A stretch of DNA of 15,527 nt from Candidatus Aenigmatarchaeota archaeon (GTDB taxonomy: Archaea > Aenigmatarchaeota > Aenigmatarchaeia > QMZP01 > QMZT01), in assembly GCA_030634615.1 (NCBI GenBank), contig DAOWAL010000013.1:1-15527 (forward strand). Reading direction: 5' to 3'. This document shows, in pieces, positions 1 through 14,200 of the stretch. The notes under the pieces were generated by a model. It made no database searches, had not been told where the DNA came from, and saw nothing but the letters and a program-made list of their open reading frames with translations. A program made the position numbers and the translations under genes. Numbering within the stretch: the first letter of the stretch is position 1; each line of letters opens with the position of its first letter.

Positions 1-345
1 ATAGATGAATTCTTCTTTATAGACGCTGTTACAAAGGGAGTGAAAGATGAGGAATCCACAGATCAGGTTGTGTATGTATCTTCCCCAAAAGCACTTACTG
101 AATTGAATATAACAATGAAAAAAGTGCTTAAAGTTGGTAAAATAGAATCCACAATCTTCGATTCATTATCAACACTTCTCGTTTACGAGGGTTCAGCAAA
201 TGTTGTAAGATTTTCACATTCAATAGTTTCACTTTTTCGCACACTTGGAACAAAGGGTGTTTTAGTGGCACTCAAAGAGGACGTGAAAAGTGAAGTTGTA
301 AAAGACCTAAACATGTTCGTAGACGAGGTCGTGGAATTGGAGTGA
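1..345 (+). CDS. KaiC-like RecA-fold protein, P-loop part not seen (5' partial)
   Basis: The reading frame is open from base 1 and ends in TGA at 343-345. The GTG at 40 is an internal codon, because residues before it (FFFIDAVTKG) already match a relative. The visible 114 residues align along their whole length with the C-terminal part of the minus-strand protein at 9422-9970. Shared landmarks are F-F-(I/V)-D-(A/T)-(V/L)-T, a Walker B-like strand ending STIFDSLSTLLVYEG (counterpart AIIFDTISKLMIYKG), a VRF(S/T)H helix and a final DL(N/S)MF(V/A)DE(V/I) helix. The same Walker B strand occurs in the intact KaiC-like ATPase at 10125 (RIIVDSLSA). I infer a RecA/KaiC-type fold. Whether the missing N-terminus carries a P-loop is unknown; the full-length paralogue has none. 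The next gene starts one base after this stop, so the two are almost certainly co-transcribed and translationally coupled. Function unknown; a scaffold or signalling adaptor is a guess. Confidence 0.75.
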   Translation: MDEFFFIDAVTKGVKDEESTDQVVYVSSPKALTELNITMKKVLKVGKIESTIFDSLSTLLVYEGSANVVRFSHSIVSLFRTLGTKGVLVALKEDVKSEVVKDLNMFVDEVVELE

Positions 346-346
346 T

Positions 347-2908
347 ATGACGTCTAAAATGAAAAGGAAAGAATCAGAGGGAAACGAAAGCCCAGATGAA
401 TTGTATAAAGTGTTGTTAGAGCATTCACTTCAAGGAATAGTAGTCATACAAGACTTTCGAATAGTTTTTGCGAATAAAAATTTTGCCAAGATCAGCGGAT
501 ACACCATCAAGGAGATGTTGTCGCTCTCACGAGAAAAGGTAAAGGAAATGGTACACCCAGAAGATCAATCGCTGGTCTGGGGACGTTTGAGGGACCGCCT
601 AGCATGGAAGAAGATCCCGCCCCATTACGAATATCGCGGAATTCGGAAGAACGGGTCTGTATGTTTTTTGGAAATGTTCGCCAGTAGAATCACGTACCGT
701 GGAAAACCAGCTATAATTGGAACCATTATTGATATTACCGAGCAGAAGAAGACGGAGAGAGCGATAAGGGAGAGTGAGGGGAAATACAGAAACTTGGTCG
801 AGATGGCCCCTTATGGCATAGTTTCTGTTGATTTGAAAGGGGTTGTTAAGTCATGCAATGCTGCTTTTGTAAAAATTATTGGTTATTCCAAAAATGAAAT
901 TATTGGTAAGAATTTCACAAATTTACCAACACTGAGAAAGAGGGACATTCCCCAATACCTGAAATTATTCACCGATATCATGAGAGGGAAAATTCCAGAA
1001 CCCTTTGAATCTGAGTGGAAAATAAAAGACGGCTCTTTTCGTGATGCCGAGATTCGTATTGGTTTGACTAAAAGTGGTGGAAAGTTAACTGGTATGCAGG
1101 CATTTATAATGGACATCACCGAGCGTAAGAATGCCCAGGAGGTCGTGAAAACCGAGAGGGACAGGGCTCAGAAATACCTCGACATATCGGGTGTTATGTT
1201 CCTGGCACTCGACAAAGATGGCAATGTAACTCTTATAAACCGAGAGGGCTGCAATATTCTGGGTTACAAACAAAGCGAGATAATAGGACAGAAATGGTTC
1301 GACAAGTTCTTACCAGATGCTATTAAGGTTCAAGTAAAGGGAGTCTTTGTTGACATTATTGCAGGCAAAGAATCAGCACAGGGTTATTATGAAAATTATG
1401 TGAAGACAAAGAGCGGTGAAAAGAAACTGATTGCCTGGCATAATACGTTACTCAAGGACGAAAATGGCAATGCCACAGGAACGCTCAGCTCAGGCGAAGA
1501 CATCACCGAACGAAATAAAGCCACTGACGAATTACAAAAACTATCATCAATAATTCAATACAGCACAGAACTGGTCAACATGGCCACATTGGACGGAAAG
1601 ATGATTTTTTTAAATGAAGCAGGCAGAAAATTCCTCGGGATTAACCCAAAGGAAGTTGAAAAATACAAAATTTTAGATGTCATACCAGCTGAGTATGTGA
1701 ATAAAGTAAAAAGCGAAGTACTACCTTCCATAATTAAAAGAGGTGGTTGGGAAGGTGATTTAGCATACAAAAATGTCAAGACTGGTAAATTGACACATTT
1801 TCATTCCATAACATTCTCAATCAAAGATCCAAGAACAGGAAAACCTTTATATCTAGCAAATGTGTCACGTGACATAACGGAACAGATCAAAATACAAACG
1901 GAAATAAAACGAAGCGAGGAGAAATTCAGAACGCTTTATTCTTCACTCAGGGAAGGCGTTGCTTTGCATGAAGTTGTATATAACAAGAAAGGTGCTGCTA
2001 CTAATTATATAATAACAAGTGTTAATCCCGCATACGAAAAAATTACAGGACTTAAGGCAAAAGATGCTGTTGGCAAAAAAGCTTCAGAACTTTACGGAAC
2101 TGGCAAACCTCCTTATATGGATATTTTTGTTAAAGTTGCAAAAACACGAAAACCTGAAACATTTGAAACATATTTTGCTCCTATAAAAAAGCATTTCAAG
2201 ATATCTGTTGTTTCTCCGGCAAAGGGACAATTTGCAACAGTATTTGACGATATAACTGAAAGGATAACATCCGATGAAATTTCACATAAGCAAAGAGATC
2301 TTGGATTAAAACTAAGTTCTGCGGATAACCTGAAAGACGCGATGAGTACTGTTTTAGATTTTGTTACTTATCTTCCAGATGTTGACTCTGGTGGAATTTA
2401 TATACTAAATAAAAAAATAGACAGTCTTAATTTGGTAGTACACGAAGGATTGTCAAAAGAATTCTTAAATGCAACCTCTCATTACGATTCCAATTCTTCC
2501 CACATGAAATTGGTTATGGTTGGTAAACCTACATATGTAAATTATCCTAAATTTGTGCCAGATGAAAAAGATCCAATTAAGATGAAAGAGGGTCTTCGTG
2601 CTTTGGGTGTAATACCGATACTCCATGAAGATGGTGTCATCGGGGCGCTAAACATAGCATCGCACAAAAAAGATGAATTTACTGAAAGCACTCGTGATGT
2701 GCTTGAAACAACCGCTGCTCAGATTGGCGGTGTCATATCACGTATGAGGGCAGAGGAGGAGCTCAAAAAATCTAAAAAAAATCTGGAAACAAAAGTTGAT
2801 GAGCTTGAAAGATTCAGTAAGGTGGGCGTTGGCAGAGAACTAAAAATGGTGGAACTTAAGAAGAGAATTAGGGAACTTGAGAAGCAATCAAAAACAAAAT
2901 CTACATAA
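347..2908 (+). CDS. Soluble multi-PAS/GAF sensor protein without kinase domain
   Basis: The product has 853 residues with no signal peptide or membrane helix. Domains in order: PAS1 about 16-133, PAS2 143-261, PAS3 272-390, PAS4 396-514, PAS5 523-640, GAF about 647-800, and a charged coiled-coil tail 803-853. Each PAS ends in the usual D-I-(T/I)-E-(Q/R) motif: DITEQ near 129, DITER near 256, DITER near 385, DITEQ near 509 and DITER near 635. There is no H-box, N-box or G-box, so it is not a histidine kinase itself. The tail contains VDELERFSK and VGRELKMVE, a signature I recognise as recurring after PAS or kinase domains in many bacteria and archaea, function unknown to me. The same tail ends the HAMP protein at 4604-5581. 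The start follows the upstream stop by one base. It presumably senses cytoplasmic small molecules or redox state and passes the signal through the coiled coil. Parts of PAS1 and PAS3 look richer in G+C than the rest, hinting at mosaic assembly. Confidence 0.85.
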   Translation: MTSKMKRKESEGNESPDELYKVLLEHSLQGIVVIQDFRIVFANKNFAKISGYTIKEMLSLSREKVKEMVHPEDQSLVWGRLRDRLAWKKIPPHYEYRGIRKNGSVCFLEMFASRITYRGKPAIIGTIIDITEQKKTERAIRESEGKYRNLVEMAPYGIVSVDLKGVVKSCNAAFVKIIGYSKNEIIGKNFTNLPTLRKRDIPQYLKLFTDIMRGKIPEPFESEWKIKDGSFRDAEIRIGLTKSGGKLTGMQAFIMDITERKNAQEVVKTERDRAQKYLDISGVMFLALDKDGNVTLINREGCNILGYKQSEIIGQKWFDKFLPDAIKVQVKGVFVDIIAGKESAQGYYENYVKTKSGEKKLIAWHNTLLKDENGNATGTLSSGEDITERNKATDELQKLSSIIQYSTELVNMATLDGKMIFLNEAGRKFLGINPKEVEKYKILDVIPAEYVNKVKSEVLPSIIKRGGWEGDLAYKNVKTGKLTHFHSITFSIKDPRTGKPLYLANVSRDITEQIKIQTEIKRSEEKFRTLYSSLREGVALHEVVYNKKGAATNYIITSVNPAYEKITGLKAKDAVGKKASELYGTGKPPYMDIFVKVAKTRKPETFETYFAPIKKHFKISVVSPAKGQFATVFDDITERITSDEISHKQRDLGLKLSSADNLKDAMSTVLDFVTYLPDVDSGGIYILNKKIDSLNLVVHEGLSKEFLNATSHYDSNSSHMKLVMVGKPTYVNYPKFVPDEKDPIKMKEGLRALGVIPILHEDGVIGALNIASHKKDEFTESTRDVLETTAAQIGGVISRMRAEEELKKSKKNLETKVDELERFSKVGVGRELKMVELKKRIRELEKQSKTKST

Positions 2909-3060
2909 GTCATATCTCGGGTTTATACAAAACGGGAGATTTAATTAAGGGAATTTAAATAATAATTAAATAGTAAGGGTGATGGGTATGAAGAAAATAT
3001 TGGTATTTGGTTTGTGCATTTTGATGGTATTCAGCCTTTCAGGGTGCATTTCACAGGTTG
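2762..3060 (+). repeat. Long direct repeat, copy A (sensor tail + intergenic + signal peptide)
   Basis: This stretch matches 5435-5732 in collinear order (offset 2672-2673). It spans the last 48 codons of the PAS/GAF sensor, the whole intergenic region and the lipoprotein signal-peptide region of the next gene. Bases 2866-2910 are identical to 5539-5583 (45 nt), and 2947-3002 differ from 5619-5674 at only two positions. The central intergenic part (2911-2946) is much more diverged. The tail peptides share 41 of 48 residues. It looks like duplication of a unit of about 2.67 kb rather than a mobile element: there are no terminal inverted repeats and no transposase. Confidence 0.85.
2911..2983 (+). 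promoter_or_regulatory. Promoter/leader of SBP cassette 1 with dyad, TATA and Shine-Dalgarno
   Basis: A dyad spans 2914-2940: ATCTC (2914-2918) pairs with GAGAT (2936-2940) and GTTT (2921-2924) with AAAC (2930-2933), around a 5-nt centre. It contains GTTTATACAAAA, a variant of the GTTTAAACAAA word found at three other places. AT-rich TATA candidates follow (ATTTAATTAA at about 2939-2948 and TTTAAATAA at 2954-2962). GGTGAT at 2978-2983 is an ideal archaeal ribosome-binding site 4 nt before ATG 2988. It therefore favours 2988 over the in-frame GTG 2979 and ATG 2982, which overlap it. The upstream TATA candidate would leave this site in the mRNA. The dyad could instead be a termination hairpin for the preceding gene. 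Confidence 0.5.
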
Positions 3061-4580
3061 AAGAAGGAGCAGAAGTAAAGGTGAAAACAAAACCAAAGAT
3101 ATTGGTCATAGGAAGCGCTGTAGATGTTTACAATATGGACCCTGCTGTGGGATTTGATCAAGCAATTACAGCCACTATAAAATCTCTTTATGATAACCTT
3201 TACAGGCACGTTGACAATCCTCCAAGGGTCGTGCCTTGGCTTGCAGAGAGATATGAGGTTTCGGAGGATGCTATGGAGTGGACATTCTATCTAAGGGAAG
3301 ATGCGAAGTTCCATGACGGATCGCCAGTTACAGCCCAAGCCGTCAAATACTCAGCAGACAGGCTTATTGAAATCGGGAAGGGTCCGAATTCGCTGTTCAA
3401 AGGCGTGATCGATAAGGATAGCACGATAGTGATAGATGACTACACAGTGAAGTTCAAACTCTTAAAACCCTTCGCTCCGTTCCTCGATGTGATACCATGG
3501 CTTTTCATTGTAAATCCAAATATAGTGGAAGAGAATAAAGGTGATGATTTTGGACAGATGTGGTTGACAGATCATGGAGCTGGATCAGGAGCTTTCGAAA
3601 TAAAGAGAATCGTTCCTGGTGAACTCTACGAGTTCGAGGCGTTCGAAAATTATTGGAAAGGTTGGCCCGAAGAAGGGAGAATCTCAGGATTCATGAGAAA
3701 GATAATGAGAGAATCTTCTGAAAGAACAAAAGCGTTGGAAGACGGAGAGGTACACGTAGCTGACTGGTTGTCTGCAGAGGACCAACTGGTTCTTCGTGAC
3801 GTTAGTGGCATGGTGTTGGTAGATGAGCCTACACTAAATATCTATGATATAAAACTAAACAACAAGAAGACATACACGTCAGATATAAACGTGAGAAAAG
3901 CAATTTCGTATGCATTTGATTACGAAGCCTTGAAAAATATATGGGTTGGAAGGGCAAAGTTATTAAGAGGTCCTTTACCACCAGGATCTGAATGGGTCAA
4001 TGAAAATATGGAGGTATACGAAACTGACATTAATAAGGCAAAAGAAGAACTTTCAAAATCGCCATGGCCGAACGGAGGATTCGAGCTGGATTACGTTTAC
4101 GTAACCGGCCTGGAGGAAGAGAGGCAGACTGGCTTGATTCTAAAAGATCAGCTAGCGAAAATCGACATAACAGTCAACGTAATCCCAATGTCCTGGACAG
4201 ATGCAGTGGTTTTATTCTCTGATCCACAAACATCTCCTGACATGTTCCCTCTATATTCGAGTTCGGCATTCTCAGACCCGGATAACTATCTCTGGTCAGG
4301 TTACCATTCTTCACAGGTGGGCCAGTGGACAAACCCGGGACATTACGAGAATATAGAGCTTGACTCGATTCTAGAAGAGGCCAGAGGAACCATAGACGAG
4401 GATAAGAGGAAACAATTATACAATCAAGCCCAGGAGATAGTAGTTGAAGACGCAGTTAACATATTTGGCGTCATCCCACCGGATTTCCATGCATGGAATC
4501 CAAATGTAAAGGGCATTGATTACTGTCCTATCCAGGGTTCGGATGAGGAATTTTACTGGCTAAGAATAGAAGAAAACTGA
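2988..4580 (+). CDS. OppA/DppA-type (SBP family 5) substrate-binding lipoprotein
   Basis: The product has 530 residues from ATG 2988. Its N-terminus is a lipoprotein signal: MKK, a hydrophobic run, then the lipobox LSGC with Cys20. The mature protein follows the peptide/nickel-binding family 5 pattern: an early SAVDVYNMDPA strand and SLYDNLYRHV, WLAERYEVSEDAMEWTFYLR with FHDGSPVTA, a mid-domain INVRKAISYAFDY, and a C-terminal PPDFHAWNPNVKGI. Length is normal for the family. It should sit on the outer face of the membrane and bind a peptide or other small ligand. No permease or ABC ATPase gene is visible in the window; the next gene, 23 nt downstream, is a transmembrane four-helix-bundle/HAMP protein. 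I therefore infer a role in sensing, possibly in addition to transport by a system encoded elsewhere. By eye, parts of the gene look less AT-rich than the neighbouring sensor genes. The ligand cannot be read from the sequence. Confidence 0.88.
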   Translation: MKKILVFGLCILMVFSLSGCISQVEEGAEVKVKTKPKILVIGSAVDVYNMDPAVGFDQAITATIKSLYDNLYRHVDNPPRVVPWLAERYEVSEDAMEWTFYLREDAKFHDGSPVTAQAVKYSADRLIEIGKGPNSLFKGVIDKDSTIVIDDYTVKFKLLKPFAPFLDVIPWLFIVNPNIVEENKGDDFGQMWLTDHGAGSGAFEIKRIVPGELYEFEAFENYWKGWPEEGRISGFMRKIMRESSERTKALEDGEVHVADWLSAEDQLVLRDVSGMVLVDEPTLNIYDIKLNNKKTYTSDINVRKAISYAFDYEALKNIWVGRAKLLRGPLPPGSEWVNENMEVYETDINKAKEELSKSPWPNGGFELDYVYVTGLEEERQTGLILKDQLAKIDITVNVIPMSWTDAVVLFSDPQTSPDMFPLYSSSAFSDPDNYLWSGYHSSQVGQWTNPGHYENIELDSILEEARGTIDEDKRKQLYNQAQEIVVEDAVNIFGVIPPDFHAWNPNVKGIDYCPIQGSDEEFYWLRIEEN

Positions 4581-4603
4581 AATGTCATATTGGGTGAACT
4601 GAA

Positions 4604-5581
4604 ATGGTTCGTTGGACAATAGGAAGAAAATTGGCAGCGTCATTTCTAGTTCTAACCATCCTCATGGCTTTTATGGGATTTTTAGGGATAACGTCATTGG
4701 CTTTTTTGAATTCAAGTAGTAATGAGATACTGGAAAGGCAACAGCCGATTTTAACGACAATCTCAGAAATAAAAACAGACCTTCTAACCAGTAGATTGAA
4801 AATCAGTCAATATCTGAGAACAGGTAATATGGCACACTTAATTGCTGTCAGAAATGAAATGAGGGATGTTAACAATAGCATTTTATTCGTTGAGGGGGAA
4901 GCTGATGAAGAAACTCTGGAGATTTTGAATGAAATTAAAAACTCTTTCATTTCGTATAAAAATTTAATAGACAGTCTCTTATCTTTTTATGAAAAAAACC
5001 CTGATGAAACAGAAATTATAGACATGAAAAAATCCAACCTGAACTCGCTTATGGAAAATGCACTCCTAATCAAACTCGATTCACTGTACGATACTAAGAA
5101 TGAAAACATAAGAGAACTTGGAGAATTGAACAAAGAGGTTTATGAAAACTCTTTTATGATGACAACATTTCTAAGTTTAATTTTAGTTGTAATAGGACTT
5201 TTAATTTCATTTTTGGTTTCGAGAAACATAACAATTCCTTTGAAAGAAATGGCCGAACTCATACCTAGAATGGTAAGAGGAGAATTCAAGAAAATCAGAA
5301 TAAAATCAAGAGATGAGATAGGTGATCTGGCCTTTGGTTTCAATAAGATGGCCGACGATCTTAAAAAATCAAGAAAAGAACTAGAAAAATATAGCGAAGG
5401 CCTTGAAAAAGAGGTTACCGAAAGAACAAAGGAATTAGAAAAATCCAAAAAAGAACTTGAAGAAAAAGTAGATGAGCTCGAAAGATTCAGCAAGCTTACC
5501 GTGGGAAGAGAACTGAAGATGGTTGAAATGAAGAAGAAAATTAGGGAACTTGAGAAGCAATCAAAAACAAAATCTACATAA
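4604..5581 (+). CDS. Four-helix-bundle/HAMP membrane sensor lacking an output enzyme domain
   Basis: The product has 325 residues. TM1 is about 10-33 and TM2 about 184-206. Between them lie about 150 mainly helical residues resembling the four-helix-bundle sensor of chemoreceptors. A HAMP domain follows (about 205-257, with NITIPLKEM and the DEIGDLAFGFNKMADDL helix), then a continuous coiled coil (258-325). It ends in the same tail as the PAS/GAF sensor (VDELERFSK, VGRELKMVE). There is no kinase, methyl-accepting hairpin or cyclase domain, so it must act through a partner bound to the coiled coil. GGTGA at 4593-4597 lies 6 nt before ATG 4604 and supports this start. It follows the OppA-type SBP gene by 23 nt, so the SBP is the likely extracellular partner. 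This resembles the known TorT-TorS arrangement, where a periplasmic binding protein engages a helical sensor domain. The partnership is inference. Confidence 0.82.
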   Translation: MVRWTIGRKLAASFLVLTILMAFMGFLGITSLAFLNSSSNEILERQQPILTTISEIKTDLLTSRLKISQYLRTGNMAHLIAVRNEMRDVNNSILFVEGEADEETLEILNEIKNSFISYKNLIDSLLSFYEKNPDETEIIDMKKSNLNSLMENALLIKLDSLYDTKNENIRELGELNKEVYENSFMMTTFLSLILVVIGLLISFLVSRNITIPLKEMAELIPRMVRGEFKKIRIKSRDEIGDLAFGFNKMADDLKKSRKELEKYSEGLEKEVTERTKELEKSKKELEEKVDELERFSKLTVGRELKMVEMKKKIRELEKQSKTKST

Positions 5582-5732
5582 GTTCTGGCCCAGGTTTAAA
5601 CAAAATTGGAAATTTAATAAGGGAATTTAAATAATGATTAAATAGTAAGGGTGATGAGTATGAAGAAAATATTGATCTTGAGCTTGTGCTTTTTGATAGT
5701 TGTTGGACTATCAGGATGTGTTTCACAGGTTG
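5435..5732 (+). repeat. Long direct repeat, copy B
   Basis: This is the partner of 2762-3060. It covers the tail codons of the HAMP protein, the intergenic region and the signal-peptide region of the LivK-type SBP. The best-conserved parts are 5539-5583 (identical to 2866-2910) and 5619-5674 (two differences from 2947-3002, including the ribosome-binding site and first codons). Only the middle of the intergenic region, around 5584-5618, has diverged. Because the repeats are direct, recombination between them would remove or amplify exactly one SBP plus one sensor gene. Confidence 0.85.
5584..5655 (+). promoter_or_regulatory. Promoter/leader of SBP cassette 2 with GTTTAAACAAAATT word
   Basis: GTTTAAACAAAATT lies at 5594-5607, 66 nt before ATG 5660. 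The same 14 bases occur at 11155-11168. TATA candidates are ATTTAATAA at about 5612-5620 and TTTAAATAA at 5626-5634. GGTGAT at 5650-5655 stands 4 nt before ATG 5660 and fixes that start over the in-frame GTG 5651 and ATG 5654. The layout mirrors the leader at 2911-2983, so both cassettes are probably transcribed under the same type of control. Confidence 0.5.
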
Positions 5733-6856
5733 GAGAAATTGGCGGAGAAAAGACAATAAAAATAGTGACAAGTGCTCCTATGAGGAGTATAAATCATGGA
5801 CAGGATATATCCAGAGGAGTGAAATTAGCTTTGGAAGAGGTTAATTATCAAGTAAGCAATTTTAAGATAGAAATTGTAACCGAAGATGATGGTGATGAGA
5901 ATGGTCAATGGCAGGAATCCTTGGAAGAGGAAATTGCCAAAAGAGCAGTTGCTGACCAAGATGTAATGGCTTACATAGCAACACTTAACAGTGGAGCTGC
6001 AAAGATAAGCATTCCGATAACAAACGAGGGGGGACTTGTTCAAATAAGTCCTGCAAACACTTGGCCAGGACTTACAAAAGCAGGATTTTTCCCAGGAGAG
6101 CCAGGCATATTTTATCCTACAGGAATGCGTAACTTTTTCAGAGTCTGCACAACAGACGATAACCAAGGTCCGGCAGCAGCAATATGGGCAAAGGACCTGG
6201 GGTTCAAAAACATATTCATATACGATGATGGAGAGGCATACGGGAAAGGAATAGCAGATTTATTCGCAGAAAAAGCAACTGTAATAGGCTTAAATGTAGT
6301 GGGACAGAAAACCATTGATAGGACAGCAGAAGATCTTACAGATGAACTAAATGAGATAAAGGATTTGGATATAGACCTTATCTATTTTGGAGGCATGAGT
6401 TCACATGGCGCAATTCCAATAATCAAAGGAATAGAAGAGTTGGAAATGACAGCAAAATTCATGGCTCCCGATGGCGTTATGGATCCCGCCTTTATTGAAG
6501 GAGGAGTAGATGCTACAGAAGGGGCATATCTGACTACGGTGGCGGTTCCACCAGAAGAAGTAGGAGGAAAGGCAAATGATTTCTACAATAACTATGTGGA
6601 AATGTATGACATGGAACCAGGATCCTTCTCTGGATTAGGCTATGAAGCAGCAAAGGTAGTACTACTGGCAATTGAAAAGGCAGGAACAAATGATAGAGGA
6701 ATGATATTGGAGGAAGTCTCCAAAATAAAAGACTATGATGGTCTTTTCGGCACTTGGAGTTTCGATCAGAATGGTGACACTACTTTGACTTTAATGAGTG
6801 GAAACATAGTGAAAGATAAGGTCTTTGTTTTTGAAAAACTACTGAGTGCAAAATAA
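5660..6856 (+). CDS. LivK-type (Peripla_BP_6) substrate-binding lipoprotein
   Basis: The product has 398 residues from ATG 5660. A lipoprotein signal ends in the lipobox LSGC with Cys20. The body follows the branched-chain amino-acid/ANP-receptor type I binding fold: GQDISRGVKLALEEVN, an edge strand KIEIVTEDDGDENG, AYIATLNSGAAKISIPITNE followed by QISPANTWPGL, FKNIFIYDDGEAYGKGIADL, LIYFGGMSSHGAIPIIKGI and SGLGYEAAKVVLLAIEKAG. Length is normal. It is predicted to be an extracellular, lipid-anchored protein binding an amino acid or related molecule. No LivHMGF transporter genes are present; the next gene, 18 nt downstream, is a Cache-domain histidine kinase. I infer that it is a ligand presenter for that kinase, analogous to LuxP with LuxQ. 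The signal peptide and leader are near-duplicates of those of the OppA-type gene, although the mature proteins belong to different families. Confidence 0.88.
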   Translation: MKKILILSLCFLIVVGLSGCVSQVGEIGGEKTIKIVTSAPMRSINHGQDISRGVKLALEEVNYQVSNFKIEIVTEDDGDENGQWQESLEEEIAKRAVADQDVMAYIATLNSGAAKISIPITNEGGLVQISPANTWPGLTKAGFFPGEPGIFYPTGMRNFFRVCTTDDNQGPAAAIWAKDLGFKNIFIYDDGEAYGKGIADLFAEKATVIGLNVVGQKTIDRTAEDLTDELNEIKDLDIDLIYFGGMSSHGAIPIIKGIEELEMTAKFMAPDGVMDPAFIEGGVDATEGAYLTTVAVPPEEVGGKANDFYNNYVEMYDMEPGSFSGLGYEAAKVVLLAIEKAGTNDRGMILEEVSKIKDYDGLFGTWSFDQNGDTTLTLMSGNIVKDKVFVFEKLLSAK

Positions 6857-6874
6857 AGAATAAGAAAAGATAAA

Positions 6875-8950
6875 ATGGAAGAGAGGAAAATTAGAGTTAT
6901 ATTTAGCAAGATCGGGTCGAAATTGATAGTCCCATATCTAATAATCTCCTTTCTTACATTAGCGATAATCGCAGGACTGGTCTACTATAATTACAATGTG
7001 CAAGTTGATTCCATACAGAAAATCCAAGATGAAATCTCAATCAAGGCCAGTTCTGAGATTAATTTTTACATTGAAAGAATTGTTAGTGAATTGGAATTGT
7101 TCAGTAATGAAATAGGTAAAACCAACCGCTTTGATAAAACCCTAAACCTCAAAAGTTTGAAAAATTTAATTGAACATGATCCTAGCATTTATTCACTTTC
7201 AATTGCTGATATAAACGGTATTGAAATAAATAAAATTGTCAAATATTACGACATGGAAACAGCTTCAGAATTGAAGGATACACATACCGAGGAAAAATTT
7301 AAGAAGGCGATTGAGGGAGATATTTTTCTGGGCCCTATCTACATCTCTAAATATGACATCCCATTTATTTCAATAAGTTCACCTATTTCAGATGATGACG
7401 GTGAAATAATTGGGGTTCTGGCTTCTGAAGTCGATCTAAGTCCCATGTGGGGAACCATATCCAAAATAAAGGTTAAAAAAACGGGATATGTCTACGTTGT
7501 GGATAACGATGGGCATCTTATAGCGTATAAGGACATCGCTCTAGTCAAGGAGCATCTAGATCTGAATCATATTGGGGGGGTTAGAAATTTCTTTAATAAT
7601 GTCCATGTGTCCGATGGTTACATTTCTTTCAATGACGAAGAGGTTATTGGCGATTGGAAAATGATTGAGATCGTTGGTTGGGGCTTGATTGTGGAATTGC
7701 CAAGCAAAGAAGTATTCCAAGAATTATCACCACTTCTAAATATTGGCGGAATTTCAGTTATCGCCTTTGTCTTATTCATAATTATAATCCCAATGATCAT
7801 TCTTAGAGTCGTGTTGAAACCGCTTGGTTATTTGCAAGAGGGGGTTATGGAAGTCAGAAGCGGGAATCTGGGGTACAAAATCTCCAAGACATCTAAAGAT
7901 GAGATAGGCGAGATAACTTCTGCTTTCAACCAGATGACCGTTGATTTGAAAAAATCACAAGAATCTATAAAGAAACATGCTGAAGAAATGGAAGGAAAAG
8001 TCGAAGAAAGAACATCAGAACTGAATGAAAAACTAGGTGAGCTTTCCGATACAAAAACAGCTGTTCTCAACATGATGGAGGACATGGACGAAGCAAATAT
8101 CAAACTCATCAAAACACAGGAAGAGCTTGAAAAAAGCCTTGCTGAATTAAAGGAAACTGACATAAAGAAAGATCAATTCATTTCAATTGCAGCACATGAA
8201 CTAAAAACACCTCTTACTTCAATTCATGGATTTTCCCAGCTTTTGATGAACAAGAAAGTTGCGAATAATTTCACGAAAAGAAACAAATATCTTAAGATTA
8301 TGGATCATGAAACAAAGAGGCTTGGTAAGCTTGTGGGTGACATACTTGATCTTTCAAGAATAGATCTTGGTACTGTAAAAATGTCATTAGTGACACTTGA
8401 TGTTAACGAATTCATTGAAAATATGGAAAGAGAAATGGAAATGCAAATCAAGGATAAAGGACTTACTTCAAAGTATGCCATAGAAAAGAAATTACCTAAA
8501 ATACAAACAGATAAAGAAAAACTTACAGAGGTTATCATAAACCTCATAAATAACGCTATTAAATACAGCCAGAAGGGCAAAATTACAGTTAAGGGTTTCA
8601 AAGAAAATGAAAACATACATTTCATCGTAAAGGATAATGGTATTGGTGTATCAAAGGGAAACCTTGAAAAGATCTTTGACAGATTCTATCAGATAGATTC
8701 ATCGTATACGAGAAGCGTTGGCGGAACAGGTCTTGGCTTGTCATTATGTAAAGAATTTGTTGTAATGCTCGGCGGAAAAATATGGGTAAACAGCGTCTTA
8801 GGTAAGGGAAGTGAATTCCATTTCACGCTTCCGATTAGCGGTGTGTCAGAAAAAAGTAAAACAGAGAGAAAGAAAAAGGCCGAAGAAACTATTAAAAGAG
8901 CAAAAGAACTGCAAAAAAACATTAAAGAGGCTGGCGGCAGTTCGCCTTAA
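6875..8950 (+). CDS. Cache-HAMP transmembrane sensor histidine kinase
   Basis: The product has 691 residues. TM1 is about 17-38. An extracellular Cache-type domain (about 40-285) carries YVYVVDNDGHLIAYKD and a closing GWGLIVELP strand. TM2 is about 290-312, HAMP about 311-362 (DEIGEITSAFNQMT), a coiled coil 363-430, HisKA with phospho-acceptor His441 in FISIAAHELKTPLTSIHGF, and HATPase_c with N-box NLINNAIKYS (Asn560), G1 DNGIGV, F-box IFDRFYQ and G2 GGTGLGLSL. All catalytic boxes are intact, so it should be an active kinase. After the ATPase domain there is an unusual basic, helical extension of about 30 residues (658-691). The start at 6875 has only a weak purine-rich upstream sequence and may depend on translation of the preceding SBP gene, 18 nt away. 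The likely phospho-acceptor is the receiver protein encoded convergently at 9010-9381, but no transcriptional link is visible. Confidence 0.92.
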   Translation: MEERKIRVIFSKIGSKLIVPYLIISFLTLAIIAGLVYYNYNVQVDSIQKIQDEISIKASSEINFYIERIVSELELFSNEIGKTNRFDKTLNLKSLKNLIEHDPSIYSLSIADINGIEINKIVKYYDMETASELKDTHTEEKFKKAIEGDIFLGPIYISKYDIPFISISSPISDDDGEIIGVLASEVDLSPMWGTISKIKVKKTGYVYVVDNDGHLIAYKDIALVKEHLDLNHIGGVRNFFNNVHVSDGYISFNDEEVIGDWKMIEIVGWGLIVELPSKEVFQELSPLLNIGGISVIAFVLFIIIIPMIILRVVLKPLGYLQEGVMEVRSGNLGYKISKTSKDEIGEITSAFNQMTVDLKKSQESIKKHAEEMEGKVEERTSELNEKLGELSDTKTAVLNMMEDMDEANIKLIKTQEELEKSLAELKETDIKKDQFISIAAHELKTPLTSIHGFSQLLMNKKVANNFTKRNKYLKIMDHETKRLGKLVGDILDLSRIDLGTVKMSLVTLDVNEFIENMEREMEMQIKDKGLTSKYAIEKKLPKIQTDKEKLTEVIINLINNAIKYSQKGKITVKGFKENENIHFIVKDNGIGVSKGNLEKIFDRFYQIDSSYTRSVGGTGLGLSLCKEFVVMLGGKIWVNSVLGKGSEFHFTLPISGVSEKSKTERKKKAEETIKRAKELQKNIKEAGGSSP

Positions 8951-9009
8951 TCCATTTTTCACAAGGAACCCCGTATAATACTTTGCCCATACGTGATTAT
9001 CCATTGACA

Positions 9010-9381
9010 CTAACCGATGATCTTTTTTATTCTCTTTAGAAGGTCATCGTTGTCAAAAGGTTTTGTTATATAATCAGAAACTTTCATCGAGTCAAGTTTA
9101 CCCTTCCCAGCTTCTGAGAATTTGGCAACAGTTACAAAGGCTATTTTCAAATTCTCTGTTTTCGGATTTTTCCTTATGTTTTCACATGTTTCTCTTCCAC
9201 TCATCCCGGGCATCATCATGTCAAGGAGCATCAAATCGGGTTTTACAGTTTTTAATTTTTCTAATGCTTCTTCACCATTTATCGCAGGAATTACTTCATA
9301 ACCTTCTTCTTCAAGGATTGCCGTTAGAAGTGCTATTAAACTTTCTTCATCATCAACTATCATGATTTTTCTCTTTGCCAT
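9010..9381 (-). CDS. Single-domain response regulator (CheY/receiver type)
   Basis: The product has 123 residues from ATG at 9381 (minus strand). It is a receiver domain only. Acidic pair Asp10-Asp11 lies in IMIVDDEES, phospho-acceptor Asp54 in MLLDMMMPGMSG, the switch Thr84 in IAFVTVAKF and Lys107 in YITKPFD. There is no DNA-binding or enzymatic output domain, so it must act by protein contact or as a phosphate relay. An upstream in-frame ATG at 9402 would add seven residues (MRDILII). I prefer 9381 because the TATA candidate at about 9404-9412 would place transcription start just before it, giving a leaderless mRNA. It converges with the histidine kinase gene (59 nt between stops) and lies 40 nt downstream of the P-loop-less KaiC-like gene on the same strand, so co-transcription with that gene is also possible. 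Confidence 0.92.
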   Translation of the reverse strand: MAKRKIMIVDDEESLIALLTAILEEEGYEVIPAINGEEALEKLKTVKPDLMLLDMMMPGMSGRETCENIRKNPKTENLKIAFVTVAKFSEAGKGKLDSMKVSDYITKPFDNDDLLKRIKKIIG

Positions 9382-9421
9382 AATTATCAATATGTCTCTC
9401 ATTTTATTAATATAATTTTTA
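9382..9421 (-). promoter_or_regulatory. Candidate TATA promoter for the receiver gene
   Basis: Read on the minus strand, an AT-only stretch (AAAAATTATATTAATAAAA, roughly 9420-9402) contains a TATA-like element centred about 27 nt upstream of ATG 9381. This fits a leaderless archaeal transcript. The gap is short (40 nt), so read-through from the upstream gene is equally possible. Confidence 0.35.
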
Positions 9422-9970
9422 TCATATATCTATTATCTCATCTGCAAACATTGACAAATCGCTTATCAATCGTTGATGTTCTTCTTTCTCTATATCACTA
9501 TTTTTTTGTAGCAGGAACATTTTTTTCGTTTTTCTTTCACCATTTTCTGAAAGCAATTCGTGTGTGAATCTAACTATTGATGAAATTCCTTTGTATATCA
9601 TCAGTTTGGATATTGTATCGAAAATAATAGCATTGCATTTTTCTTCGTTTATGGCTGTTTTTATCGCATTTTTCATCTTTGTCAAATCAGTAGGCCCGTC
9701 TACAAAAATGCAGTTGTCAACTGGGGGATGTTCCATGTAATAAGATGTTAAGGTGTCCACGAAGAACAAATTTGATGTGTCAATGTCCATATTTTTTAGT
9801 TCATTTATCGTGTCTTCATATGGTCTCGTAATGGTCACATAACATATTTTTTTATTGCCATCACCAATCAATTTTATTATTTTGTCGAAATTTGTCACGT
9901 ATTCATCCTCTTTTGTAAGCAAAAGAAATAATCTGTTTTTACCTGAAACATTATTTTTTCTTTCTCCCAT
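9422..9970 (-). CDS. Degenerate KaiC-like RecA-fold protein without P-loop
   Basis: The product has 182 residues from ATG at 9970 (an in-frame TTG lies at 9979). Its C-terminal two thirds align with the partial protein at 1-345, so the two are paralogues. A RecA/KaiC-like order of strands is visible: RLFLLLTKEDEYVTNFDKII in the place where a Walker A loop would be, then KICYVTITRPYEDTINELK (compare CLYMSFEESEERL in the intact ATPase at 10125), NLFFVDTLT, the Walker B-like NAIIFDTISKLMIYKG, and a final DLSMFADEIIDI. No GxxxxGK(T/S) motif exists and the paired catalytic Glu of KaiC is not apparent, so ATP hydrolysis is unlikely. It is predicted to be soluble. Its neighbours are a receiver gene downstream and an active KaiC-like ATPase divergently upstream, which suggests a regulatory or adaptor role. 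Family assignment is by pattern only. Confidence 0.75.
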   Translation of the reverse strand: MGERKNNVSGKNRLFLLLTKEDEYVTNFDKIIKLIGDGNKKICYVTITRPYEDTINELKNMDIDTSNLFFVDTLTSYYMEHPPVDNCIFVDGPTDLTKMKNAIKTAINEEKCNAIIFDTISKLMIYKGISSIVRFTHELLSENGERKTKKMFLLQKNSDIEKEEHQRLISDLSMFADEIIDI

Positions 9971-10124
9971 TTCAATCAATAGTCATTTGTATGGACAATT
10001 TATAAATTAAACGTATAAATGTTTAAACAAATCAGTGTAAACAATAAACATATTATATTGGTTATTCAATACATCATAACAGATTTATTAGTAGAGAATG
10101 TAAATTCTATATTAGGTGTGTTAA
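9971..10124. promoter_or_regulatory. Divergent intergenic region with GTTTAAAC palindrome and promoters both ways
   Basis: This 154-nt region separates two divergent genes. For the minus gene, TTTATAA around 9999-10005 lies about 30 nt upstream of ATG 9970, consistent with a near-leaderless transcript. For the plus gene, GATTTATTA (10082-10090) followed by GGTG (10115-10118) fits a TATA box and short leader ending at ATG 10125. GTTTAAACAAA at 10021-10031 is the shared word also found at 5594 and 11155. AATTAAAC (10005-10012) lies 8 nt to its left and also recurs at 11165-11172. The palindrome sits about 50 nt from the minus start and about 100 nt from the plus start. Confidence 0.45.
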
Positions 10125-11057
10125 ATGGCAAAGAAAAATGTCAAGAAAAAAACAACAAAAGCTGCAAAAAAAAGAACAAAAAAACCAGCTGCAGAGTCAA
10201 AGAAAAAACCTCTTTTTGATATCGGGGCGATAAAAAAAGAGATAAAAAAAGTTACTGTTGGCGGAAAAACATCAAAAGTCCAAACTAAAAGCAGTACAAA
10301 AAAGATGGCAAAGGGAAAGGAAAGGCATTACGTTAAGGTAGGGATAGACGGATTTGACAGTCTTTTTGAATACGGTATACCAAAGGGATCTTCCATACTA
10401 GTTGCTGGTGGTGCAGGCTCTGGTAAAACAATATTCTGTTTACAGATGATTGCGGATGCTGCAATGAAGGGTGAAAAATGCCTTTACATGAGTTTTGAGG
10501 AATCAGAAGAAAGACTAATAAACCACATGGAAGATTTTGGATGGGACGCAAGAAAACTCATAAAGGAAGGAAAACTCAAGATTGTAAGAATGAGCTCTCA
10601 TGATATTGCAAGGTCAGTTGAAGCACTGCTTGCAAAAGAGAGAGGGGAACTCATGATAGATATGGAACCTGTGATAATCCCGGAAGGGTTTAAACCTGAC
10701 AGGATAATAGTTGATTCTCTTAGTGCAATATCATCAAGCTTTATTGGCAGTGAGAAAAATTACAGGAGTTACATAGAGCAGTTATTCAGATATTTTGAAA
10801 AACTAGGTTCAACTTCATTTTTAATAACAGAAACTGAGCAGGTACCAAAAATATTCAGCCCGACCGGCGTAGAAGAATTCCTGGCTGATGGTGTAATAGT
10901 TCTTTACAGCATAAGAAAGGGTGATGTAAAGGAAAATGCAATAGAAGTTCTTAAGTGTCGTGGAGCAAGACACGAAAAGAAAATTGTGGCAATGCAGATG
11001 ATAGAAAATAAAGGAATTGTCGTATACCCGGATCAGCAGGTATTTAGTGGAATATAA
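10125..11057 (+). CDS. KaiC-like RecA-superfamily ATPase with lysine-rich N-terminal tail
   Basis: The product has 310 residues with a single RecA/KaiC domain at about 66-305. Visible motifs are VGIDGFDSLFEYGIPKGSS (typical KaiC entry), Walker A GGAGSGKT (95-102, Lys101), YMSFEESEERL with the paired Glu125/Glu126, Walker B RIIVDSLSA with Asp197, and a late strand ADGVIVLYS followed by the K-C-R-G-A-R-H segment seen in KaiC-family C-termini. It should bind and hydrolyse ATP and oligomerise as a ring; targets are unknown. Residues 1-65 are low-complexity and very basic (KK and KKK runs), possibly a nucleic-acid or membrane-surface tether. An alternative start at Met61 (10305) would remove the tail, but GGTG at 10115 and a TATA candidate support 10125. 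The poly-A codon runs of the tail are prone to sequencing or replication slippage. It is a single-domain protein, not the double-domain clock KaiC. Confidence 0.87.
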   Translation: MAKKNVKKKTTKAAKKRTKKPAAESKKKPLFDIGAIKKEIKKVTVGGKTSKVQTKSSTKKMAKGKERHYVKVGIDGFDSLFEYGIPKGSSILVAGGAGSGKTIFCLQMIADAAMKGEKCLYMSFEESEERLINHMEDFGWDARKLIKEGKLKIVRMSSHDIARSVEALLAKERGELMIDMEPVIIPEGFKPDRIIVDSLSAISSSFIGSEKNYRSYIEQLFRYFEKLGSTSFLITETEQVPKIFSPTGVEEFLADGVIVLYSIRKGDVKENAIEVLKCRGARHEKKIVAMQMIENKGIVVYPDQQVFSGI

Positions 11058-11203: not shown

Positions 11204-14200
11204 ATGTTGTATAAATTCATTGTAATTACTATTATACTATTGATTATAATTCCATCAGTTTCTGCTTCGAATTTACCGAATATCACTTTGTCTGCACCGA
11301 ATGATGGAAATATTTCAACTACACAAAACATCACTTTTGAATGTAATGTTACAGATGATGAGAGTATTTACAACATATCCCTTTTTCATAACATAAACGG
11401 TACATTCGAATTCCATAGTACCAGAAACATAATGACAGTTGAAAGTGATGATAATACGACATTGCTGTGCAGATTTGATAATAATTATACATGTGAAGAT
11501 GGCGAGGTCGGGACAGGTACATCGACAGATTTCGTGACAACCAAGTTCATGAACGGTGTCAGGATAAACAACTCTGACACGCTGACCTATCCTGCATCGG
11601 GCAACATAATCACGGACAGCGGGACAATCGAGTTCTGGGTGCAGCCGGGTTACAACACGACAGGTTATGGGGACTACATCTACCTTTTCGTTACAGATCC
11701 TTATAGCGAAGAAGAAGTGAATTATTTCGAAATCTACATATACAATGACGATATTTTCTTCAATATCGTAGATTTTGAAGGAGAAGACGAGAGTGTTTCC
11801 AAATCCATAGACTGGAAAGTGGGAGAATGGCATCATGTCGTGGCGGAATGGGATGTCGACAACCAATTAGGAAACGGTGAGATTGTAGACATATTCATTG
11901 ACGGTTTGAACAGCTCGACCACATTCGGTGGTACAGGTTATAGCACAAAAGGTAGCGAATTAGGGACAAATATATACATAGGAAGCTATATCGACGGCCA
12001 ATATCAGGGAATATCGGTTTTCGATGAATTCAGAATTTTGAACAAACCTTTGACTGAGAATGAAATAAATGCCTCTTACCATAAGAGCCTATCGGATCAC
12101 ACAAGTGAAACCGCTACTTGGACAATAAATAATATTCCTGACGGCTCATACAAATGGGCATGTCTTGCGTATGATAATGAAAGTCAGGGCAATTGGTCTG
12201 AAACAAACTTCACACTTTATGTAGATTCGTCAACATGCCCAGCACTGGAAGAGTTTATTTTCTCCCCTCCAAATGATGATGCCATAGATCCTAGTATGGT
12301 TGTTAATGTTACTGCAAATGTATCAGACTTTACTAACGTTAGTTCAGTTGTGTTTCAATGGAATGAAAATGGTAGCTGGACCAATGACACAATGGATTAT
12401 GACAACATCACTGAATTATTTGAAAATGCAAGTATGACAATTGACCAAACCGGTGGTGTGTACTATTACAGAATATGGTCGAATGATACATGGGGGAATT
12501 CAGGATATTCAAGTACATTAAACATGTCAGTAGATTGGGATTATACATGGTCGCTTAGCCCATCTACTTTTGGCACAGTTTATGGGTTTGTTAGTTGCTC
12601 TGACTGCTATGTTGGTACACTAATAATAAATAATACAGCAGATGACAGTATGAGTTTTACAATATTAAATGACTGGCCATTCGGTCTTAGCTATAACGTT
12701 TCAAACCCAGTTTCAATAGGTGCGAATCAGGAAATTCATATAAATGTAACAGCTGACTTTGCAGCTGAATCCAGCGAATACGATGTTGTATTGAATGTAA
12801 CAGCAGTACATGGAACTCAAACACCGTTGCCAACTTCAAGTAATGTTACATTTTCAATGAATTCATATACCGGTGGATCATATTTTGACAATGATGACAT
12901 ATCGGTTACAAATTATGAAACCAGTGTTTATCAGGGGATGTCATATAATCTTACAATGGAACTTAAAAACATAGGTAATGATACAGCTAACAATGTATCT
13001 ATAAACTGGACACTGCCTACTGGTTGGTCAAACAGTTCTGGAAATTTAACAAATTATATAGGTCCATTAAATGGCTCAACTGATGGTGGTAATACGATAA
13101 CTTTGAACTTAACAGTTCACATTTCATCTTCATCTGCAGTAGCTGGTGTTACAAATATAACAGTTTCTGCCAGTTCCAGCGATGGCCTTTCTGCAAATAC
13201 AACTGTTACAACCTATGTTAATTGCAACAATGATGACAGTGTATGTGGTTTGGGATGTTCATACGTAACAGATGACGATTGTCCGATACCACAATCTCCT
13301 GGTGGAGGTGGTGTCTCTACTTCAATAGCACTTCCTGCGTCTTCAAAAGAATACGACATGACACTGACACTTCCTGAAAGAATTGATGTGAACAGGGGCG
13401 AAACAAAGATAGTTCAGATTGGTGTGAGAAATGACGTTTCTGGAACAACTTTAGATAGTGTTAAACTTTCACTTACCGGTTATCCTCAAACATTTATGAA
13501 AATTGTTCAAAGCAAAATAAATGGTATAGGATACGGAGAAATTGAATATTTTGATGTCGAAATAATTGCACCTGTTTATGCTGTACATGAAAAATACACG
13601 CTTACTGCAAAGGTGTCGGGTGCATTTATAGAATTGAATAAAGAAACACCAACTGAAAAAACAGGTGAAGTACCGCTTGTTACACACAAAACAATAGCGA
13701 ATGATACACTCGATTATTACGATGGTGCAAAAGAAGCATTAGTTGAAATGGAAAATTCTGAATTCGAAAGTAAGCAACTTAAAGAAACGCTTATTGAAAT
13801 AGAGGAAGCACTTGACGAAGGTAATTATGATAAAGTAAAAGAACTTTCAGAATCAGTAATTTCAAAAAAGAATTTAGCATTTGAACTGAGCAAAAAGATT
13901 AGTGAAATGGAAAATATCATACAGTCTATAAAATATCAAAACGGTGAACTTCCAGAAGCTGAAAAAATGCTCTTCCTTGCAAAAACCGCATTTCAGAGAG
14001 GTGAATATGATAGGGCAAATGAGAGAATGGATAGTGCAGCTTTAGTATACACACTTGAGTCAACAAATGCTTGGTTTACTATTTTTGTTACAAAATACTG
14101 GTGGGCAATTATCATCGCCATGGTAGCATTAGTTAAACTTGCTTTCATGAGCAAAAATAAGCTTAATGTGATGGGTAAGATAGGAAGACTGGATACTCTT

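Follow-up and report, generated by a model that had tools for sequence, protein, structure and literature searches.

Sensing through receptors activated by substrate-binding proteins (SBPs) is firmly established and involves no fewer than 13 SBP families and every major type of ectodomain (PMC11113362). It extends to archaea, where BasB and CosB of Halobacterium salinarum copurified with Htrs including BasT and CosT (PMC3579733). The kind of system treated here is therefore already known. We analyzed a stretch of 15 527 nucleotides (nt), positions 1 to 15 527 of contig DAOWAL010000013.1 from a Candidatus Aenigmatarchaeota archaeon (hereafter, the window), in which two lipoprotein SBP genes are each followed by a gene for a membrane sensor, the kinase-less receptor R1 in one pair and a histidine kinase in the other.

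BasB/BasT and CosB/CosT, reportedly the subject of work by Kokoeva in 2002 and overlooked in the first-pass annotation of the window, resemble this locus in that archaeal SBPs act with a transducer; however, BasT and CosT are methyl-accepting chemotaxis protein (MCP) transducers, whereas the Pfam scan found no MCP signalling domain (PF00015) in R1. In XylFII-LytS of Clostridium beijerinckii (structure 5XSJ), an SBP is presented to a four-helix-bundle ectodomain, as proposed for R1, but that system couples a kinase, LytS, to a xylose-sensing SBP, whereas R1 is kinase-less and its partner is an SBP_bac_5 protein. GlnX reportedly has four transmembrane (TM) helices and two periplasmic domains, and PknG is said not to be a histidine kinase, which sets these proteins of Corynebacterium glutamicum apart from the window system. 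In GlnH-GlnX-PknG, the kinase is a separate protein, on which an SBP acts via a membrane receptor whose periplasmic domains are four-helix bundles (PMC9769921). Compared with SBP-activated sensor histidine kinase pairs in general, the window kinase (6875–8950) has the extracytoplasmic domain, HAMP and kinase core, and the adjacency of SBP and sensor genes is conserved in relatives; R1 (4604–5581) differs in lacking a kinase. The geometries of TorT-TorS and LuxP-LuxQ, which the first-pass annotation saw reproduced side by side, hold by analogy only, as R1 is not a kinase and its best VIA-align match is LytS. Membership in TorS (TIGR02956, cut-off 676.5) was rejected at 33.4 bits for R1 and 201.7 bits for the kinase, and membership in LuxQ (NF041947, cut-off 1200) at 155.5 bits, from the kinase part only.

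We consider it likely, from comparison of sequences, that the window encodes receptor cassettes whose ligands are presented by SBPs and whose signals pass into a shared PAS/kinase/response-regulator hub, with the SBPs as importer-derived sensing parts, and that the archaeon probably uses nutrient-binding proteins to sense its surroundings. SBP sensing itself is known (BasB/BasT, TorT/TorS, XylFII/LytS); the new features are the kinase-less receptors, a single receptor class paired with six SBP families, the permease-free setting, the cassette layout and the modular exchange. The source genome is a DPANN Aenigmatarchaeote metagenome-assembled genome (MAG) of 1.10 Mb in 142 contigs (83% complete, 0.42% contamination), designated G000; the other genomes compared also carry G-numbers, loci in relatives' genomes carry L-numbers, and G002 is an Aenigmatarchaeote of the same family as G000. 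We use TAIL for the approximately 40 residues, including 'VGRELKM', that extend to the C-terminus of R1. The Pfam scan covered nine window open reading frames (ORFs), and a partial ORF at 1–345 lay outside it. The cassette features are as follows.

2757–3080 (+): direct repeat copy 1, containing the TAIL-encoding 3' end of a PAS gene, a 79-nt leader, and the start and signal peptide of SBP_B; 80% identity to copy 2
2988–4580 (+): SBP_B, a lipoprotein of SBP family 5 (SBP_bac_5, PF00496, E = 2.4e-74); 71.5% identity to its G002 orthologue; alternative GTG start possible at 2979
4604–5581 (+): R1, arranged as TM, four-helix bundle, TM, HAMP, S-helix and TAIL, without a kinase (Pfam 4HB_MCP_1 and HAMP)
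5430–5752 (+): direct repeat copy 2, containing the TAIL-encoding 3' end of R1, a leader, and the start and signal peptide of the LivK-type SBP; 80% identity to copy 1
5660–6856 (+): LivK-type lipoprotein SBP (Peripla_BP_6, PF13458, E = 1.1e-35); closest solved chain 3td9, an amino-acid binding protein; alternative GTG start possible at 5651
6875–8950 (+): histidine kinase with dCache_1, HAMP, HisKA and HATPase_c (Pfam); output half 60.7% identical to the G002 kinase

Pairing of binding protein and receptor genes

The first-pass annotation had described two SBPs of unrelated families, each followed within 25 nt by a transmembrane sensor, and no permease or ATP-binding cassette (ABC) ATPase gene in the window. 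Pfam bears this out: the families are PF00496 and PF13458, the gaps are 23 nt (SBP_B to R1) and 18 nt (LivK-type SBP to kinase), and neither an ABC permease nor an ABC ATPase occurs among the nine ORFs scanned. A signal peptide and a lipobox (LSGC) were seen directly in the sequence of both SBPs, and the gaps on their 5' sides are 79 and 78 nt.

For R1, Pfam recognized 4HB_MCP_1 (PF12729, 42.3 bits against a cut-off of 27) and HAMP as the sensor parts, and no output domain or kinase. The predicted model is a four-helix bundle (helices 6–73, 76–99, 102–131 and 142–224), and HAMP is followed by a helix bearing 'ERT', a signature of the S-helix (PMC1592074), and then by the TAIL. The TAIL is common to the PAS proteins and receptors of G000, G002 and G015, and also occurs in one G016 receptor. 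Among the 120 R1 homologues listed out of 304 found (R1 included), 117 had the TAIL, always within 25 amino acids (aa) of the C-terminus, three had a kinase core and none had both, in a search restricted to 0.55–1.75 times the length of R1, which favours kinase-less TAIL proteins. The possibility that R1 is a truncated kinase gene was set aside in view of this C-terminal position of the TAIL in 117 of the 120 in this length-limited list, none of those 117 carrying a kinase core. The homologues listed bear names including Woesearchaeota, Thermoplasmata and Patescibacteria, so the receptor architecture is broader than Aenigmatarchaeota; kinase-less HAMP-TAIL receptors occur in proteins named as Patescibacteria-type or unclassified bacteria (P0040, P0048, P0051, P0059, P0088, P0091 and P0114). 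A sequence search of the PDB with the R1 ectodomain gave nothing meaningful, and a fold search was therefore used, in which VIA-align placed LytS, solved with its SBP, as the best match and Foldseek ranked NarQ, a direct nitrate sensor, first.

Among 156 genomes of the phylum, an alignment spanning HAMP and TAIL (A2) matched 19 at E ≤ 1e-8, and 12 of the matches were full-length kinase-less receptors with two TM helices. An SBP gene lay directly upstream on the same strand in 11 of these 12 (gaps from –4 to +75 nt), and the SBPs belonged to six Pfam families.

PF00496: G000, G002
PF04392: G015 (three in tandem), G018
PF13458: G016 L043 (two in tandem)
PF00497: G016 L086; G060 twice, once with three in tandem
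PF01547: G016 L087
PF13407: G004 L095, G012 L099

The twelfth receptor (G016 L093) had no SBP upstream. The ORFs in relatives' loci are mechanical calls, and partial A2 matches were left uncounted, namely soluble PAS-TAIL proteins, multi-TM TAIL proteins (L101, L137), small TAIL proteins (L140, L141) and a HAMP-PAS protein (L102). One of the 12 (G060 L088:9072–9953) matched HAMP and not the TAIL model, though A2 aligns to position 140. Our own HAMP model included two wrongly cut seeds (the G000 and G015 kinases); in the receptors that were scanned with Pfam, the HAMP domain was confirmed. At L052:5175–8237, three tandem ABC_sub_bind-type lipoproteins with 57–67% identity precede one receptor, an SBP expansion.

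Five of the 14 HAMP-kinases in the phylum loci examined also had an SBP directly upstream (the window, G002, G007, G064 and G004 L094), and the remaining nine were preceded by a PAS-TAIL gene (five), a DUF835-like gene (two), a HAMP-TAIL receptor (one) or a KaiC gene (one); a 7TM receptor of G007 is likewise preceded by a PAS-TAIL gene. The adjacency first noticed in this genome thus recurs, in ten phylum genomes in all (G000, G002, G004, G007, G012, G015, G016, G018, G060 and G064), and because of this recurrence chance is not a credible source of the pairing.

Counts from the SBP side covered PF04392, PF00497, PF00496 and PF13458, and PF01547 and PF13407 lay outside them. All six PF04392 proteins (four genomes) were in cassettes. 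The 14 PF00497 matches (four genomes) comprised seven in cassettes, including one in G060 that lies immediately 3' of its receptor, five orphans (four in G016, one in G060) and two adjacent to a permease (G008). For PF00496, three of nine matches in seven genomes were in cassettes (G000 once, G002 twice), two were adjacent to permeases (G009 C214, G046), and four (G009 C54, G039, G144, G145), on short contigs or in very long proteins, were left unassigned. Three of 18 PF13458 matches in seven genomes were in cassettes; those of G013 and G055 adjoin BPD_transp_2 genes, nine of ten in G124 share a contig with its BPD_transp_2 genes, the two of G112 were left unassigned, and the G015 match is a PF04392 protein. 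The five orphan SBP_bac_3 proteins (L162:5839–6639, L163:5370–6224, L164:5965–6777, L165:6195–7043 and L166:5367–6161) have neither a recognized permease nor a receptor adjacent, and could serve receptors in trans.

Outside the phylum, 17 genomes among 392 relatives matched at 1e-15, in a search that scored only 10 candidates in some genomes, and 16 regions from 14 of the 17 were read (G218, G275 and G329 were left out). Four of 19 HAMP sensors there had an SBP directly upstream, and three others of the 19 had no upstream gene inside the stretch read. Of the SBPs, PF13458 precedes kinases in G302 and G372, PF04392 precedes a kinase-less HAMP receptor in G232, and PF12974 precedes a kinase in G380. 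The pairing is accordingly not confined to the phylum, yet is not the rule elsewhere. Two HAMP-TAIL receptors outside the phylum are preceded by FIST-domain genes rather than SBPs (L119:6625–8151 with 8166–9089; L121:6675–7787 with 7809–8930). By title and start of abstract, no paper on SBP-receptor pairs in Aenigmatarchaeota was found in the openly (CC) licensed part of PubMed Central, where most subscription papers are missing, and literature searches did not find the kinase-less class with ectodomain, HAMP, S-helix and TAIL.

Ectodomain type and the repeat at the cassette boundary

G000 and G002 share one gene order (PAS-TAIL, SBP, receptor with TAIL, SBP, kinase), and their output halves match by slot (59.5% between R1 and the first G002 receptor, 60.7% between the kinases). 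The four-helix bundle of R1, however, matches that of the G002 kinase (70/155, 45%, z = 39.6) and not the first G002 receptor (z = 0.9), and SBP_B, which holds the first slot in G000, precedes the kinase in G002, in slot 2. We compared by BLAST the ectodomains of 17 proteins (the 12 receptors and the five SBP-preceded kinases), and found eight pairs at 34–58% identity, each of the eight having partners from the same SBP family and five linking a kinase-less receptor and a kinase: R1 and the G002 kinase (PF00496); G015, G018 and the G064 kinase (PF04392); G016a, G060a and the G007 kinase (PF00497); and G004 with G012 (PF13407). None of 200 000 shuffles of the SBP labels reached eight same-family pairs, and when all 16 hits at E ≤ 0.01 were taken, nine were same-family, a number reached by 59 of 200 000 shuffles. 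Figures from a binomial and a Fisher test were discarded, the former because it presupposes SBP densities and the latter because it is in part circular. Ectodomain type thus tracks SBP family and not output, and nothing argues more strongly for a functional pair than the way SBP and ectodomain move together from one output to another. This also supports the description of the SBPs as 'exchangeable' in the first-pass annotation, and related archaea apparently swap SBP-receptor pairs as units. In the G002 kinase (L008:9645–12095), a HisKA_7TM region is joined to the four-helix bundle, HAMP and kinase core, so that two input domains are stacked in an unusual way.

The direct repeat (324 bp, two overlapping families) spans the TAIL codons, the stop, the leader, and then the beginning of the SBP that follows (start codon, signal peptide and lipobox), and the mature SBPs behind its two copies belong to different families. 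An extended local alignment of the copies gave 288/364 identities (79.1%), with a score of 400 against a shuffle maximum of 59. Because the copies enclose mature SBP_B and R1 up to the S-helix, recombination between them could duplicate, delete or replace a whole cassette, and such recombination may have driven cassette exchange; the switch of output between G000 and G002 needs a second crossover near HAMP. The G002 SBP_A has a similar leader and signal peptide (scores of 59 and 69 against shuffle maxima of 36 and 38), and the repeat of G002 itself is weaker (69.6% over 171 bases). A leader common to all SBPs was rejected, because the window leader has no counterpart before SBP_B of G002 (scores of 36 and 30, with shuffle maxima of 37 and 44). 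The leader elements 'TTTAAATA' and 'GGTGAT', picked out by eye, may be a promoter and a ribosome site.

Importer permeases and competing explanations

A genome-wide search of G000 for the cognate permeases of PF00496 (BPD_transp_1) and PF13458 (BPD_transp_2) found no match to either in this 83% complete genome, and neither was found in G002, G004, G007, G012, G015, G016, G060 or G064; ABC ATPases were checked among the nine window ORFs only. Positive controls in 14 genomes matched 14/14 for BPD_transp_1 and 12/14 for BPD_transp_2. The absence of a transporter, which the first-pass annotation could see only within the window, therefore extends to the genome and eight relatives as far as permeases are concerned, and an importer operon with distant permeases is disfavoured. 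Of the two findings named there as able to refute a signalling role, matching permease genes and a lack of SBP-sensor adjacency in other genomes, neither was made, which supports the first-pass reading. Across the 156 phylum genomes, BPD_transp_1 was matched in 24 and BPD_transp_2 in three, and of the ten cassette genomes none has BPD_transp_2 and only G018 has BPD_transp_1. The cassette SBP of G018 is PF04392, whose usual permease is BPD_transp_2. A bacterial relative of SBP_B (L009, Thermomicrobiaceae, 47% identity) has two permease-like ORFs directly downstream, recognized by eye, so the ordinary role of the SBP_B family is transport. Solved structures did not yield a ligand: peptide, nickel, haem and opine binders all score, and none was therefore assigned to SBP_B.

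We weighed the possibility that the paired genes are adjacent but uncoupled, with the four-helix-bundle and Cache ectodomains binding ligands directly and the SBPs as passengers or otherwise employed. Direct binding of small ligands is established for both ectodomain types (Tar, NarQ, dCache receptors), and solved relatives were found. The ectodomain comparison has limits of its own: adjacent genes are also inherited together; the 34% identity line was chosen after the hits were seen; the ectodomains of the G004 kinase (PF04392) and the second G060 receptor (PF00497) are unlike those of their own SBP families; and the dCache domain of the window kinase is 26–27% similar to the dCache partners of PF04392. 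In addition, genes were close in 10 of 11 characterized SBP-kinase couples, yet AgtS and AruS show that proximity can mislead and that close genes need not be linked (PMC11113362). Uncoupled neighbours nevertheless seem unlikely to us, given the recurrence of the pairing with six SBP families and the agreement of ectodomain type with SBP family across different outputs.

It is improbable that the SBPs belong to importers and that the matching permease and ATPase genes are located elsewhere or escaped detection because the MAGs are incomplete. Although G000 is incomplete and the bacterial relative at L009 points to transport, six of the permease-negative cassette genomes (G002, G007, G012, G015, G016 and G060) are listed at 90% completeness or more, and the six genomes in which SBPs adjoin permeases (G008, G009, G013, G046, G055 and G124) do not overlap with the ten cassette genomes. 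The orphan SBPs of G016 and G060 would suit a role in which SBPs scavenge or hold solutes, or pass them to a non-ABC carrier or a partner cell, while receptors merely report loading; however, no conserved carrier was recognized beside the cassettes in the loci read, where the multi-TM ORFs are partly annotated, and such a role explains receptor coupling only by adding sensing, which makes it very improbable. That the contig is foreign to the archaeon, through an assembly or binning artefact, is scarcely credible: another contig of the G000 bin (C134, L135) does look bacterial by eye (FHA and SurA-like proteins) and the MAG has small contamination, but separate MAGs from the same family and order (G002, G015) carry orthologues of the hub genes, G007 and G018 have a similar layout, and the 20% difference between the repeat copies shows that they did not arise by duplication in assembly.

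The proposed shared hub and the flanking genes

The genes flanking the cassettes include the proposed hub.

1–345 (+): 3' part of a DUF835-like/inactive KaiC-like protein cut by the contig edge, a hub member; 66% identity to the G002 copy and 52% to the G015 copy
347–2908 (+): soluble PAS-GAF protein ending in the TAIL, a hub member; Pfam PAS and GAF, five PAS domains by our own model; TAIL 69% identical (48 aa) to the G002 receptor tail
9010–9402 (–): REC-only response regulator, a hub member (Pfam); 78% identity to the G002 copy and 65% to the G015 copy
9422–9979 (–): DUF835-like protein, a hub member; below the Pfam cut-off; 36–37% identity to the G002 and G015 copies
10125–11057 (+): KaiC-family ATPase, hub-linked (Pfam); 58% identity over 192 aa to the G015 KaiC2, whose ORF is cut by the end of its stretch
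11204–15352 (after the KaiC ATPase): 1382-aa membrane protein with a LamG match by Pfam

The hub genes (DUF835-like, PAS-TAIL, HAMP-kinase, REC-only regulator, second DUF835-like and KaiC) recur as a full or incomplete set in several families of the phylum, whether or not SBP cassettes are present (window 1–11057; L008, L052/L053 and L084–L100). In the proposed mechanism, each SBP, descended from an importer component and anchored to the membrane as a lipoprotein, would bind its solute outside the cell and, once loaded, dock on the ectodomain of the receptor encoded just downstream. SBP_B would serve R1, which would pass the change via HAMP and the S-helix to the TAIL, and the TAIL would couple R1, presumably by docking, to the PAS-TAIL protein, the histidine kinase, the REC-only regulator and the DUF835/KaiC-like proteins. 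The LivK-type SBP would serve the dCache-HAMP histidine kinase directly, and this kinase would phosphorylate the adjacent REC-only regulator. As the comparison above shows, the exchangeable unit is the SBP with its ectodomain; exchange could take place at homologous DNA around the cassettes, that is, at the repeat of tail, leader and signal peptide in the window and at HAMP for a switch of output.

More tentatively, the kinase-less receptors might form a class that takes ligands from interchangeable SBPs and reports through the TAIL to this common PAS/kinase/KaiC-like hub, while homologous flanking DNA lets units of SBP and ectodomain be exchanged or multiplied, so that importer parts become a modular sense organ in an importer-poor DPANN lineage. 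The question addressed is how DPANN archaea sense partners and nutrients; PMC10805038 describes DPANN groups other than Aenigmatarchaeota as poor in sensor kinases, and PMC9680633 reports DPANN without a chemotaxis system. If the proposal is true, importer SBPs of at least six families have been reused as receptors in a modular layout where SBP family predicts ectodomain, and this would open a route to ligands, as SBPs can be expressed and screened, and provide a means of building chimeric sensors.

A homologous membrane protein of approximately 1270–1390 aa adjoins the hub at four loci (window 11204–15352, L085:2633–6736, L096:11961–16121 and L098:11711–15520), with 32–41% identity among the four.

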